Assembly (NCBI GenBank): GCA_022396035.1
Contig: JAIOXO010000015.1
Span: 1 to 42,071 of the forward strand
Reading direction: 5' to 3'
Source of the DNA: Actinomycetes bacterium
Lineage (GTDB): Bacteria; Actinomycetota; Humimicrobiia; Humimicrobiales; Humimicrobiaceae
DNA length: 42,071 bases
Part shown: positions 9,136-34,406 of the stretch, piece by piece
Layout of the letters: each line of letters opens with the position of its first letter
How positions within the stretch are numbered: the first letter of the stretch is position 1
Translations under genes and position numbers: made by a program
Notes under the pieces: model-generated
What the model was told of the DNA's origin: nothing
Database searches by the model: none
The model's input: the letters and a program-made list of their open reading frames with translations, nothing else

Positions 9136-9405
9136 GGCCGTGCTAGGCGGGGAGCTAGCGGTGCCCTGTACTCACAATCCGCTACAGTGAGGCTGAATGG
9201 CGGTATTGAGGTTTCCTGCAGTAGGGTTTGACCTTGTGCAAGTGGCAATGAAGGCTGGGTCTCATGCGGCGAAGAGTTGCGAACCCCGTCAGGTCCGAGA
9301 GGGAGCAGCGGTAAGCAATAAGCTTCGGGTGCCATGAGGAAACCTGGCTGGAGCAAACTGCACAGGGGGCACCTGTTGCGGTAAATCGAATTCCGCTGCA
9401 CGGCT
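9136..9405 (+). ncRNA. ffs: Signal recognition particle RNA, long form with Alu domain
   Basis: The RNA is about 270 nt and matches the long, Bacillus-type SRP RNA. The 5' end GGCCGTGCTAGGCGGGGAG and the following GGTGCCCTGTA are the Alu-domain signature. The conserved S-domain hairpin lies near 9288-9309 (GTCAGGTCCGAGAGGGAGCAG, in part), with a GAGA tetraloop and the asymmetric loop that binds Ffh. The 3' end GCACGGCT pairs with the 5' GGCCGTGC (one G-U). The ends are placed from this terminal helix. The RNA targets membrane and secreted proteins to the translocon. It directly precedes dnaX, a common arrangement. Confidence 0.93.
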
Positions 9406-28645: not shown

Positions 28646-28969
28646 ATGGCAGAGATGATACAATTAACTGATTCTGATTTTGAAGACAAGGTAGTTAATT
28701 CGGATCTACCGGTTTTGGTAGATTTTTGGGCAGTATGGTGTGGGCCCTGTAAGATGATCGCTCCCGAGCTGGAGAAATTAGCCGATGAAAAAGGAGACGC
28801 TCTAAAGATAGGGAAGTTAAATGTGGATGAAAACAGGGACACCGCAATAAAATATGGAATCAGCAGTATTCCTACCCTGCTGTTTTTTAAAGATGGCAAA
28901 ATCGCAAAGAAGCTTATTGGTGCTATGTCCAAAGATAAGATATTAAATGAAATATCTTCCTTCCTTTAA
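28646..28969 (+). CDS. trxA: Thioredoxin
   Basis: This 107-residue protein is a standard cytoplasmic thioredoxin that reduces disulfides. The active site WCGPC is at 31-35, and the cis-proline lies in the SSIPTLLFF segment. The length and fold are typical, with no signal peptide or extra domain. GAAAGGA precedes the ATG. Its stop overlaps the start of the DUF72 gene by one base. No thioredoxin reductase gene is in the window. Confidence 0.96.
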   Translation: MAEMIQLTDSDFEDKVVNSDLPVLVDFWAVWCGPCKMIAPELEKLADEKGDALKIGKLNVDENRDTAIKYGISSIPTLLFFKDGKIAKKLIGAMSKDKILNEISSFL

Positions 28970-29769
28970 TGGCACAAATTTTTCTAGGTACCTCCGGGTA
29001 TAAATATAAGGATTGGATAGGGGAGTACTATCCACAGGACATGGATAGTAAAGAAAACCTTTTCTATTATGGAAGGGATTTTAATACAGTAGAGATAAAT
29101 TTTACTTATTACTCCCTGCCCAATCCTTACATATTTTTAAATATGGTTAAAAAAGCAAAACCCGGCTTTTTATTTTCCATTAAGGCCCATAGTTCCATGA
29201 CTCACCATAGAAATTTTACCGACCAGCAGCGACAGCAGTTTTTTCAATCACTCAAGCCCTTGCAGGATAACTCAATGCTGGGATGTCTGTTGTTTCAATT
29301 TCCATATTCCTTTAAATTCAATAAAAAAAATGCCCAATACTTAGAAGAAATAGGGGAAAAATTTGGCGAGTACCCCTCAGTTATAGAGTTCAGGCATAAT
29401 TCATGGTTAAGGGAAGAAGTATTTAATTTGATGGCAAAAAGCAATCTTGCTTTTTGCAATGTTGATGAGCCTGGTTTGCCCGGATTACTGCCGCCAACAG
29501 AAATTAATGTTGGCGATATTTCTTATATAAGGTTCCATGGCCGTAACAGGAAAAACTGGTGGAACCATGAACAGGCTTACCAGCGGTATGATTATGCCTA
29601 TACCCTTAAGGAATTATCAGAATGGATACCCAGGATTGAACATATGGCTTCCAAACCCGGAAAAATATTTATATATTTTAATAACCATTACCGGGCCAAA
29701 GCAGTAAAATCAGCCAGAGTTCTGGCAGGTTTACTTAAAGAAAGCCATATTATTACTTCACAAAATTAA
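28969..29769 (+). CDS. DUF72 (YecE-like) family protein
   Basis: This 266-residue protein belongs to the DUF72/YecE family, a TIM-barrel-like fold of unknown function. Family features are the N-terminal FLGTSGYKYKDW, FNTVEINFTYYSLP, LLFQFPYSFK, VIEFRHNSW, YIRFHGRN and the C-terminal IFIYFNNHYRAKA. The many conserved charged and aromatic residues suggest an enzyme active site, possibly with a metal, but no reaction is established. The ATG overlaps the thioredoxin stop, so a redox link is possible but unproven. Confidence 0.9.
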   Translation: MAQIFLGTSGYKYKDWIGEYYPQDMDSKENLFYYGRDFNTVEINFTYYSLPNPYIFLNMVKKAKPGFLFSIKAHSSMTHHRNFTDQQRQQFFQSLKPLQDNSMLGCLLFQFPYSFKFNKKNAQYLEEIGEKFGEYPSVIEFRHNSWLREEVFNLMAKSNLAFCNVDEPGLPGLLPPTEINVGDISYIRFHGRNRKNWWNHEQAYQRYDYAYTLKELSEWIPRIEHMASKPGKIFIYFNNHYRAKAVKSARVLAGLLKESHIITSQN

Positions 29770-29827: not shown

Positions 29828-32800
29828 ATGTTTAAGAGAGTAGAGGCAAAAGTAAATTTAGTAGAGATGGAAGAAAGAATCCTGAAGTTCTGGAAGGATG
29901 CCCGGGTTTTTGAAAAGAGCCTTCAAAAGAACAAACATAATAAAAAATTTGTCTTCTATGAAGGTCCCCCTACAGCAAATGGTGCCCCGGGAGTCCATCA
30001 TGTGTTATCCAGGGTGTTTAAGGATATATTTCCCCGGTATAAAACCATGAAAGGCTATTATGTCCCCAGAAAAGCAGGCTGGGATACCCACGGGTTACCG
30101 GTTGAGCTGGAGATTGAAAAAAAATTAAATATAAATTCAAAGAAAGAAATTGAAGAAATAGGCATCGAGAAATTTAACCGGTTATGCAAACAGAGCGTAA
30201 TGCGCTATGAAGAAGAATGGAAAAAAATGACTGAGCGCATAGGCTTCTGGATTGATATGGATAATGCTTATTATACTTTTACCAATGATTATATTGAAAC
30301 TATATGGTGGATACTTAAAACAGTATGGGACAAGGATCTTCTATACCAGGGGCACAAGATTGTGCCTTATTGTACCCGATGCGGTACGGCTCTATCCTCA
30401 CATGAAATAGCCCTGGGATACAAGGAGGTTATTGACAAAACTATTGTGGTAAAGTTTAAGCTGAAGGAAAAGAAGAATTGTTATCTTCTGGTTTGGACTA
30501 CCACCCCCTGGACCCTGGTGTCCAATGTAGGCTGCGCTATAAACCCGAAAGCAACTTATGCAGAGGTTGAATTTGAGGACCAGTGCCTGGTTCTGGCCGG
30601 GGACCTGGTGGAAAGTGTATTTGGGGAAGAAGACAGCTACAGGGTTATCCGTAAATTTAGCGGTAAAGAACTGGTGGGTAAAAAATATGAGCCCATTTAT
30701 GATTATGCCGAGGACAGCACCCGGGCCTATAAGGTGGTGCCTGGCGACTTTGTCTCTACCCGGGAGGGTACAGGGATTGTACATATAGCCCCTGCCTTTG
30801 GTGAAGATGATATGAGTGTAGGGTTAAAAAACAACCTTCCTGTAGTGCAGATGGTTGACTATGATGGGAAATTCAAGCCAGAGGTAGACCAGTTTGCAAA
30901 AATGGGAATAGAGGAATCCAATCCGGTCATAATTGATGATTTAAAGAAAAGAAATCTGTTGTTCAGCTTTGAAAACCACAAGCACTCCTATCCTTTTTGT
31001 TGGAGGTGTGACAGCAGATTGATCTATTATGCTAAAAAAAGCTGGTACATAAGAACTTCTAAAATAAAGCAGCAGCTGCTGGACTCCAACCAAAAAGTTA
31101 ACTGGTACCCGGAACATATAAAATATGGAAGATTCGGTAAATGGCTGGAGAATAATATAGACTGGGCCTTAACCAGGGAACGTTACTGGGGAACCCCGTT
31201 ACCCATATGGGAAGATGAAAATGGTCACCGGGTATGTATAGGCAGCATACAGGAATTAAAACAAATGGCAGTGGAAGAATTTGATGAACTGGACCTCCAC
31301 CGGCCCTATGTAGATAATGTAAAAGTCAAATGCCCTCAATGCGGGCAGCATATGCACAGGGTTACCGAGGTAATAGATGTATGGTTTGATTCGGGCTCAA
31401 TGCCTTTTGCCCAGTTTCATTATCCTTTTGAGAACCAGGAGTTGTTTAAGGAAAGTTTTCCTGCCGATTTTATATGTGAGGCCATTGATCAAACCAGAGG
31501 CTGGTTTTATACCATGCTGGCTATATCTACTTTCCTGTTTAAACAATCAAGTTACAAGAATGTATTGTGTCTGGGCCTGATAAATGATGAAAATGGACAG
31601 AAAATGAGCAAGTCCAGGGGCAATATAGTGGAGCCCTGGAAAATACTGAACAAACAGGGCGCAGATGCTCTCAGGTGGTACTTTTTTACGGCAGTATCCC
31701 CCTGGCTGCCCAAAAATTTTTCAGTCAGTTCGGTAGATGAAGTAATCAGGAAGTTTATCCTTACCCTGTGGAACACTTATTCGTTCTTTGTAATCTATGC
31801 CAATATAGATAATTTTGATCCGGCAAAACACCATCTTAAAGTGGAAGACAGGCAGGAGATTGATAGGTGGATAATATCGGAATTAAATAAGACTGTAAAA
31901 GAGGTAAACAGATTGTTGGATGACTATAATGTTACTGACAGCGGAAGGCTTATACAGGATTTTGTAGACAATTTATCCAACTGGTATGTAAGGAGAAGCA
32001 GGAGGAGATTCTGGAAAAGCGGCACCGATAAAGAAAAAATCAGCGCCTATAAGACCCTTTATGAATGCCTTACTACCGTGGCCTTGCTGTGTGCACCCTA
32101 TGTACCATTTATAAGCGAAGAAATATATCAGAATCTGGTAGTGGGAATGGACCAGGATAAGGTCAGTGTTCATCTTCAGGATTATCCTGAAGATGATATG
32201 GAACTCATAGATGAACAATTAAGTTTTAATATGGAGATAGCCAGAAAAGTGGTAGGTCTGGGTAGAACCATAAGAAACAAACTGAATATAAAGACCAGGC
32301 AGCCGCTTTCTGAGGTTATAATCTATTTTGATGTAGATAAAAAAGTTACTGAAGCCATACGTCATTTTGAGCCCATAATAAAAGAAGAGCTAAATGTTAA
32401 ACAGGTAAATATCCTGGACGACAGGGGGCAGCTGGTAAGTTATGACATTAAACCTAACTTGAAGCTTTTGGGGTCCAAATACGGGGCCATGGTACCTAAA
32501 ATAAAGCAAAGCCTGGAAGAGATGAACCCGGCTATGGTAGCCCTTAAATCAGAAAGCAGCAAGAAGATATCTATGATGGTAGATGGAAAACACATAGATC
32601 TGGAACCTGATGAGGTTCTGGTGGATATTGTAAACAAAGAGGGGCTGGGAATAGAGAGCGACGGAACCTTTACCATCGGCCTTCCTTCAGAGATAGAACC
32701 CGGACTTCTTGAGGAGGGTTTTGCCAGGGAACTGGTACATCAGATCCAGAACCTTAGAAAAGAAGCTGATTTTAAGATTGAAAACACCATAAACACTTAC

Positions 32801-32977
32801 ATAGATTGTGGACCGGAAGAGAAAAAGATAATTAAAAAATATGATGATTATATAAAGAAAGAAACACTTACCCAGAAACTGAATTTTGGTAAGAAAGAGG
32901 AGTGCTTTAACCGGGAGGCGGAAGTTGACGGATCCAGTATGACCATTGCTATAGTAGTGGTGGGAAGTATTGTATGA
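29828..32977 (+). CDS. ileS: Isoleucyl-tRNA synthetase, type 2, with GXHH signature
   Basis: This 1049-residue enzyme charges tRNA-Ile. It has the class I fold with an editing domain, WDTHGLPVE (85-93), LTRERYWGTPLPIW and the KMSKS motif in KMSKSRGNIV near 591. The length and sequence fit the type 2 (eukaryote-like) group, which usually resists mupirocin. The first signature, normally HXGH, reads GVHH at 55-58 (29990-30001), so the His and Gly positions are swapped. This altered form is reported in some type 2 enzymes and gives extreme mupirocin resistance without loss of activity. The C-terminal part is the usual anticodon-binding and tail region. The stop overlaps lspA by four bases. Confidence 0.97.
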   Translation: MFKRVEAKVNLVEMEERILKFWKDARVFEKSLQKNKHNKKFVFYEGPPTANGAPGVHHVLSRVFKDIFPRYKTMKGYYVPRKAGWDTHGLPVELEIEKKLNINSKKEIEEIGIEKFNRLCKQSVMRYEEEWKKMTERIGFWIDMDNAYYTFTNDYIETIWWILKTVWDKDLLYQGHKIVPYCTRCGTALSSHEIALGYKEVIDKTIVVKFKLKEKKNCYLLVWTTTPWTLVSNVGCAINPKATYAEVEFEDQCLVLAGDLVESVFGEEDSYRVIRKFSGKELVGKKYEPIYDYAEDSTRAYKVVPGDFVSTREGTGIVHIAPAFGEDDMSVGLKNNLPVVQMVDYDGKFKPEVDQFAKMGIEESNPVIIDDLKKRNLLFSFENHKHSYPFCWRCDSRLIYYAKKSWYIRTSKIKQQLLDSNQKVNWYPEHIKYGRFGKWLENNIDWALTRERYWGTPLPIWEDENGHRVCIGSIQELKQMAVEEFDELDLHRPYVDNVKVKCPQCGQHMHRVTEVIDVWFDSGSMPFAQFHYPFENQELFKESFPADFICEAIDQTRGWFYTMLAISTFLFKQSSYKNVLCLGLINDENGQKMSKSRGNIVEPWKILNKQGADALRWYFFTAVSPWLPKNFSVSSVDEVIRKFILTLWNTYSFFVIYANIDNFDPAKHHLKVEDRQEIDRWIISELNKTVKEVNRLLDDYNVTDSGRLIQDFVDNLSNWYVRRSRRRFWKSGTDKEKISAYKTLYECLTTVALLCAPYVPFISEEIYQNLVVGMDQDKVSVHLQDYPEDDMELIDEQLSFNMEIARKVVGLGRTIRNKLNIKTRQPLSEVIIYFDVDKKVTEAIRHFEPIIKEELNVKQVNILDDRGQLVSYDIKPNLKLLGSKYGAMVPKIKQSLEEMNPAMVALKSESSKKISMMVDGKHIDLEPDEVLVDIVNKEGLGIESDGTFTIGLPSEIEPGLLEEGFARELVHQIQNLRKEADFKIENTINTYIDCGPEEKKIIKKYDDYIKKETLTQKLNFGKKEECFNREAEVDGSSMTIAIVVVGSIV

Positions 32978-33465
32978 AAATAAGCAATAATAATAAATTA
33001 TTAAACACAGTTTTTGTTCTGGTAGCAGTTATTGTACTGGCCGCAGATCAGTATACCAAGTACTGGATAAAAATAAACCTTCCCACCTCCAGTTCCATTG
33101 AAGTGGTACCCAATTTTTTTTATATCACCCATATAAAAAATACGGGAGCCGCCTTTGGGCTTTTCCCCAATGGAACCCAGGTGTTAATAATCATCTCCAT
33201 AATAGCTATACTTCTTATAATAGTAATAAAGATTATACTCAAGATTAAATCCTATTTTTTCAATATTGCCCTGGGCCTTATAATGGGGGGAGCTTTGGGC
33301 AATCTGGTAGACCGTTATTTTATTGGCGAAGTTACTGATTTTTTATATATAGTTTATTGGCCCATATTCAATATAGCGGACAGCTCGGCGGTAGTAGGAT
33401 TTGCTATTATGGTTATAATTTTATTTAAGGAATTTTTTAAAAAAGATGGGGCAGTTAAGCAGTGA
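32974..33465 (+). CDS. lspA: Lipoprotein signal peptidase (signal peptidase II)
   Basis: This 163-residue membrane protease removes signal peptides from lipoproteins after lipid addition. It has four hydrophobic segments and the two catalytic aspartates: D113 in GNLVDR and D136 in FNIADSS. The KNTGAAFGLF segment (55-64) is also typical. The window has at least one likely substrate, the lipoprotein at 21675-22262. The ATG overlaps the ileS stop (ATGA), and the stop overlaps the GTG of the next gene. The ileS-lspA-rluD order is common in bacteria. Confidence 0.95.
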   Translation: MKISNNNKLLNTVFVLVAVIVLAADQYTKYWIKINLPTSSSIEVVPNFFYITHIKNTGAAFGLFPNGTQVLIIISIIAILLIIVIKIILKIKSYFFNIALGLIMGGALGNLVDRYFIGEVTDFLYIVYWPIFNIADSSAVVGFAIMVIILFKEFFKKDGAVKQ

Positions 33466-34406
33466 ACTCTAAACCTCTGGAGTTTGTAGTAACCGCTCAG
33501 GAACAGGGCAAAAGAATTGACCGGTTTCTTTCCGAAAATATTAACCGGATAACCCGAAGCCAGATTTCAATATTAATGGAACAGGGCAAGGTCAGGGTCA
33601 ATCAGCAATCAGTAACCAAAAGTTACAGAATCAAGGAAGGCGACAGAATCTATGTCCTGGATCTGGTAAAGGATGATTCGCCTAAACTGGAGCCGGAGAA
33701 CCTAAATTTAAACATTCTGTATGAGGACAAATATCTGATGGTGGTATCCAAGCCTGCGGGAATGGTATGCCATCCAGGGCCCGGCCACAGCCGGCATACC
33801 CTGGTTAATGCCCTGCTCTATCATAGCCAGAAGCTGTCGGATAGGGGGGAAGGGGATCGTCCAGGGATTGTGCACCGGCTGGATAAGGATACATCAGGCC
33901 TGGTAGTAGTGGCAAAAGATAATCATACCCATCAACTTTTATCTGATTTGTTTAAATCCAGGCAGGTAAAAAAGATATACTGGGCATTGGTATGGGGCAA
34001 TTTTAGCGAAAAGAAGGGAATGATAAGCCTGCCTCTTTCCCGGTCTGCAAAAGACCGTAAAAAGATAGCAGTTAGTTCGGACCGGGGAAGGCAGGCCAGC
34101 ACAGAATTTGAGATCAGGGAGCAATTCAACCAGTGCAGCTGGCTGAGCATAAATTTAAAAACAGGCAGAACTCACCAGATTAGAGTGCATATGAATTATA
34201 TCGACCATCCGGTTATAGGGGATAATACATATAGAAATAAGGAATCTGCAGGACTTGCCCAGACTCTTGGATTATCCAGGCAGTTTCTGCATGCCATAAA
34301 AATAGAATTTGTGCACCCCATCAAAAAAACCGGGATAAAGGTAGAGGACAGTCTGCCCGCTGAATTGCAATCAGTTCTGGATAGACTTATCCTTAATAAG
34401 CAATAA
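33462..34406 (+). CDS. rluD: Ribosomal large-subunit pseudouridine synthase, RluD/RluA family
   Basis: This 314-residue protein modifies uridines in 23S rRNA. It has an N-terminal S4 RNA-binding domain (about 17-65, RIDRFLSENI and GKVRVNQQSVTKSYRIKEGD) and the catalytic motif HRLDKDTSG (138-146) with Asp141. The C-terminal GRTHQIRVHM segment is also present. The two-domain layout fits RluD-like enzymes, but the exact target uridines cannot be read. The start is GTG at 33462, overlapping the lspA stop (GTGA). Confidence 0.93.
   Translation: MNSKPLEFVVTAQEQGKRIDRFLSENINRITRSQISILMEQGKVRVNQQSVTKSYRIKEGDRIYVLDLVKDDSPKLEPENLNLNILYEDKYLMVVSKPAGMVCHPGPGHSRHTLVNALLYHSQKLSDRGEGDRPGIVHRLDKDTSGLVVVAKDNHTHQLLSDLFKSRQVKKIYWALVWGNFSEKKGMISLPLSRSAKDRKKIAVSSDRGRQASTEFEIREQFNQCSWLSINLKTGRTHQIRVHMNYIDHPVIGDNTYRNKESAGLAQTLGLSRQFLHAIKIEFVHPIKKTGIKVEDSLPAELQSVLDRLILNKQ

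Follow-up and report, generated by a model that had tools for sequence, protein, structure and literature searches.

The ileS gene of the window (the whole 42,071-nt stretch of DNA analysed) very probably encodes the sole, housekeeping type 2 isoleucyl-tRNA synthetase (IleRS) of its organism, with a natural GXHH signature that should confer hyper-resistance to mupirocin and that descends from an old GXHH lineage spanning several phyla. Its sequence, type, single copy, conservation, phylogeny and synteny are established here. The gene (positions 29828–32977, + strand; 1049 amino acids) scores 987.7 bits against TIGR00392 in an NCBIfam search (curated cut-off 621.4), and its product carries the full set of Pfam domains (tRNA-synt_1, Anticodon_1 and DUF5915) expected of an isoleucyl-tRNA synthetase and aligns over its full length to the structures of Priestia megaterium IleRS2 (PmIleRS2).

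The codons at positions 29990–30001 (+ strand; gga gtc cat cat) specify G-V-H-H at residues 55–58, where class I synthetases have H-X-G-H, as the first-pass annotation had read. In alignment, this tetrapeptide falls exactly on the H-V-G-H of Thermus thermophilus IleRS and PmIleRS2. That another HXGH might occupy the catalytic site is refuted by this alignment and by a scan of all 1049 residues, which reveals no second H-X-X-H or H-X-G-H. As had also been claimed, KMSKS is canonical (residues 592–596; 31601–31615, + strand). No change is seen in Asp86, Gln555 or the editing-site stretches TTTPWT and GTGIVH.AP. Two further elements are of note, namely Glu45 in FYEGPP (29960–29962, + strand) and Leu582-Gly-Leu584 (31571–31579, + strand), in which the two leucines align with T. 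thermophilus His581 and Leu583, both mupirocin-contact residues (PMC7916415). With G/A-X-H-H on the HXGH positions and a canonical KMSKS, the enzyme belongs to the G/AXHH IleRS2 of Brkic et al. 2023. In the class search, all same-family IleRSs whose motif could be read show G-V-H-H in the same context. Their codons vary synonymously (e.g. GGAGTCCATCAT, GGAGTACACCAT and GGCGTGCATCAT), so that neither chance nor sequencing error accounts for the motif.

Eukaryote-like or type 2 IleRSs are recognized by HYPFE and by lack of both the type 1 tyrosine (in GPPY) and NKIL (PMC4861432). The window enzyme has HYPFE at residues 531–535 (31418–31432, + strand), GPPT in place of GPPY and LSRV in place of NKIL, together with a long C-terminal region containing DUF5915. 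In the tree it groups with IleRS2 and is split from five IleRS1 rows with an SH-aLRT of 100. The earlier type 2 assignment thus stands on HYPFE, the full-length match to PmIleRS2 and tree position. The genome of the organism (97.8% complete, 1.6 Mb, 40 contigs) holds one TIGR00392 match over cut-off, the window ileS; a second ileS, for which a search had been suggested, is absent at this cut-off. The other large class I hits are 893-aa ValRS-like and 846-aa LeuRS-like frames with ordinary HXGH signatures (LHIGH and PHMGH). A reading in which the true HXGH IleRS lies elsewhere in the genome, and the window gene is merely a non-canonical paralogue or codes for a degenerate enzyme, has next to no probability given the single IleRS at this completeness and the intact KMSKS and editing-site motifs. 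The window ileS is very probably the housekeeping IleRS of the organism. A methionyl-like class I frame (512 aa) was also seen in this genome (G000:C35:1268-1924, – strand), with a match that crosses one TAA.

The published work on swapped type 2 IleRSs to which the first-pass annotation had referred exists, with the content stated there (Brkic et al. 2023, PMC10485003), and the GVHH swap is therefore already described and not new with the window enzyme. In that study, G/AXHH was found in about half of prokaryotic IleRS2, with X listed as I/V/L/M/Y, the structure of a GVHH mutant was solved and the swap was tied to millimolar Ki values for mupirocin. In IleRS2, a displaced tip of helix α1 lets the third-position histidine fit beside the adenine, where its side chain substitutes for that of the first histidine, and this same histidine clashes with mupirocin (PMC10485003). 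IleRS1 does not tolerate the swap, and the tolerance could not be traced to any simple residue; within IleRS2, engineered exchange of the motifs in either direction yields active enzymes (PMC10485003). The natural ALHH enzyme of Deinococcus radiodurans (DrIleRS2) combines a mupirocin Ki of 6600 μM with normal catalytic efficiency, whereas engineered swaps, which raise Ki ∼200- to 430-fold, come at some catalytic cost, with kcat lowered as much as ∼10-fold and KM raised (PMC10485003). The full activity claimed for swapped enzymes hence holds for natural DrIleRS2 but not for the engineered variants. Since the Ki of engineered GVHH enzymes is 35 to 460 μM (PMC10485003) versus 6600 μM for DrIleRS2, the degree of resistance depends on the background. 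By analogy with these IleRS2, the third-position histidine of the window enzyme would take over the catalytic role of the first and should clash with bound mupirocin. This would make the enzyme hyper-resistant, its Ki exceeding the canonical IleRS2 value by a wide margin. On these grounds, hyper-resistance of the enzyme is very likely, and the organism itself would be resistant by the same comparison.

Two origins had been proposed for the swap, exposure to producers of pseudomonic acid and simple descent. The data show descent. The class search matched 37 of 40 genomes, and all readable type 2 relatives in the class are GXHH, including those of a second family, likewise GVHH. In a third family, the enzyme of one genome (G001) is type 1, with HMGH. 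In two genomes of the second family, RMSKS stands in place of KMSKS in GVHH enzymes (L012, L111 and L112). Across a phylum sample of 297 genomes, GXHH patterns occur in 153 and HXGH patterns in 75, with both in two genomes (G188 and G275); the 71 that match neither reflect incompleteness or pattern strictness. The two genomes with both patterns each encode two type 2 IleRSs, one with GVHH and one with PHYGH (L154/L155 and L156/L157). Stricter patterns applied to 201 genomes of the phylum to which the Anaerolineae-like genome G310 belongs (here called Chloroflexota) recovered 77 GXHH and 5 HXGH. In a scan of public genomes, the motif also occurs in relatives with the labels Actinomycetota, Thermoleophilia, Anaerolineae and Poribacteria. 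GSHH, GAHH and GTHH are widespread (L013–L019, L021, L069 and others); therefore X is not always among the residues listed in 2023.

Two IleRS trees, both built without the motif columns, place the window protein within an all-GXHH clade of the class (SH-aLRT 100), which in turn lies inside a larger clade that spans several phyla and is dominated by GXHH. In each tree, five motif changes are required in total. Gene order is equally conserved. Upstream of ileS lies a gene (28969–29769, + strand) whose product we take to be a DUF72 protein; it reaches the cut-off of no NCBIfam family, and it sits beside ileS throughout the family. Downstream, lspA, encoding signal peptidase II (32974–33465, + strand; TIGR00077), overlaps the ileS stop by 4 bases and is followed by a gene for an RluA-family pseudouridine synthase (33462–34406, + strand; TIGR00005). 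The order DUF72-ileS-lspA-rluA recurs across the family. With a GC content of 0.41, ileS matches the average of the window (0.42). Collectively, the family-wide motif, the deep nesting, the conserved gene order and the unremarkable GC content indicate that the GXHH IleRS2 of the window was inherited from an old multi-phylum lineage and is not a recent gain of this organism. A recent adaptive origin, in which contact with pseudomonic-acid producers selected for a swapped ileS that had arisen by mutation or been received by transfer in the organism or a near ancestor, would agree with the hyper-resistance that the swap confers on tested IleRS2 (PMC10485003), yet it is highly improbable: every same-family homologue readable at the motif is swapped in an unchanged gene order, the second family is swapped too, the window motif lies deep within a clade of several phyla and ileS has the GC content of its surroundings. 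Likewise, class-wide conservation, tree and synteny rule out an origin from a resistance cassette. The Rfam search found no T-box upstream of ileS, its only hit being a large bacterial SRP RNA (RF01854, 194.9 bits) at 9138–9403 of the window (+ strand).

Descent leaves room for different reasons why the swap persists, and bulk conservation cannot show the reason. Some guidance comes from an apparent natural reversion. Two genomes of another family of the phylum (f9) encode IleRS2 with PHIGH (L143, G117:C77:28600-32600; L144, G244:C28:4500-8500), and eight sampled relatives of theirs have GXHH. Neither genome has a second ileS over cut-off. The clade that holds both has SH-aLRT values of 99–100; where exactly they branch, and whether they are each other's sisters, is less secure (95 and 85 in the two trees). 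Among near-invariant positions outside the motif, both are altered only by E45D, L582F and a change at the weaker position 578. The 2023 paper, which gives Deinococcus-Thermus as its case, does not list this apparent reversion from GXHH, read here from sequence comparison. Position 45 shows a broader association with the motif. Glutamate accompanies GXHH in 149 of 149 entries (some of them duplicates) as well as in all 77 of the Chloroflexota matches, and is found in every sampled GXHH enzyme outside a deep clade with MHKS; aspartate accompanies HXGH in 25 of 25 entries and occurs in IleRS1, PHYGH IleRS2 and the natural revertants. A strict coupling is nevertheless rejected, since the canonical PmIleRS2, T. 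thermophilus IleRS and three Chloroflexota IleRS2 (L194–L196) retain Glu45, and the deep MHKS clade joins Asp45 to GXHH. Thus, the association is a tendency and not a rule.

Catalytic or architectural demands may maintain the swap, or a return that takes two changes may simply be difficult; in either case, resistance would be a by-product in most lineages including that of the window. The spread of the swap over many lineages, its near-absolute conservation and the apparent reversion with E45D and L582F, which hints at a coupled active-site set, give this explanation a chance only slightly short of even. They are offset by the canonical enzymes that keep Glu45 (those of P. megaterium, T. thermophilus and L194–L196), which make the coupling less than strict, and by the activity of enzymes exchanged in both directions (PMC10485003). 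It is compatible with inheritance from the old GXHH lineage and differs only on why the swap persists. It is tempting to propose, though only tentatively, that Glu45, G/AXHH and Leu582 form a coupled set that is the default of the multi-phylum clade, with resistance as a by-product; that HIGH revertants such as those of f9 change Glu45 and Leu582; and that a deeper Chloroflexota clade, as sole IleRS, has also turned KMSKS into MHKS.

This deep clade is characterized by GPITANNxMG[V/I/A]HH (L034:3-3410, L046:2-3274 and L217–L231). Most copies read have [E/P/A]MHKS for KMSKS, one has MSKS, and several further active-site changes accompany them. Of 151 Chloroflexota-centred genomes, 57 carry it. 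In nine of the 10 genomes examined, no other IleRS exceeds the cut-off; in two others, both Anaerolineae-like, it adjoins a normal ileS in tandem. Brkic et al. describe a minor IleRS2 clade to which it may correspond; their text makes no mention of MHKS (PMC10485003). Elsewhere, class I synthetase matches occur in two consecutive sets along a 1738-aa open frame (G309:C68:9977-14629), possibly a doubled ValRS-like protein.

The window thus extends a known type of naturally resistant enzyme to an uncultured class, in which the swap has full penetrance among type 2 members readable at the motif. It illustrates a change in a highly conserved catalytic motif that is stable over deep time and apparently reversible in nature, and with which at least one nearby residue seems to covary. 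The associated residues offer specific single-site tests of how class I synthetases tolerate the swap. What is new is small: the apparent f9 reversion with E45D and L582F, the Glu45 association, and the Chloroflexota GXHH/MHKS clade, often sole IleRS. The Chloroflexota and f9 observations leave the verdict on the window as it is.

Among named systems, the closest are the G/AXHH IleRS2, such as those of D. radiodurans (ALHH) and Streptomyces griseus, which share with the window enzyme the type 2 form, the exchange of HXGH positions 1 and 3 and a canonical KMSKS; the window enzyme differs only by sequence divergence and by lineage, that of an uncultured Actinomycetota-affiliated class. PmIleRS2 (PDB 8c8u, 8c8v, 8c8w and 8c9d), the enzyme into which GVHH was introduced for the solved mutant, shares the domain plan over residues 3–1032. 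Of the PDB matches, 8c8w ranks first: it reads LPGVHH in its printed sequence, as in the window enzyme, and outscores three PmIleRS2 entries with PHVGH; from the text of PMC10485003, we infer that it is the engineered GVHH mutant. Natural PmIleRS2, by contrast, has HVGH, and a histidine where the window has Leu584. T. thermophilus IleRS (1ile, 1jzq and 1jzs) is also type 2, with the same catalytic core and Glu45, but has HVGH, which Brkic et al. take to be reverted (PMC10485003), and carries His581 at the position of Leu582 in the window enzyme. The mupirocin-resistant IleRSs MupA and MupB (NF000257 and NF000258) are type 2 as well and their HMMs match the window protein strongly. Its scores of 984–1006 bits lie far under the curated cut-off of 1900 bits, and the genome has one ileS, which rules out an acquired MupA/MupB determinant: MupA and MupB are acquired second copies, whereas the window gene is a chromosomal, single-copy housekeeping gene.
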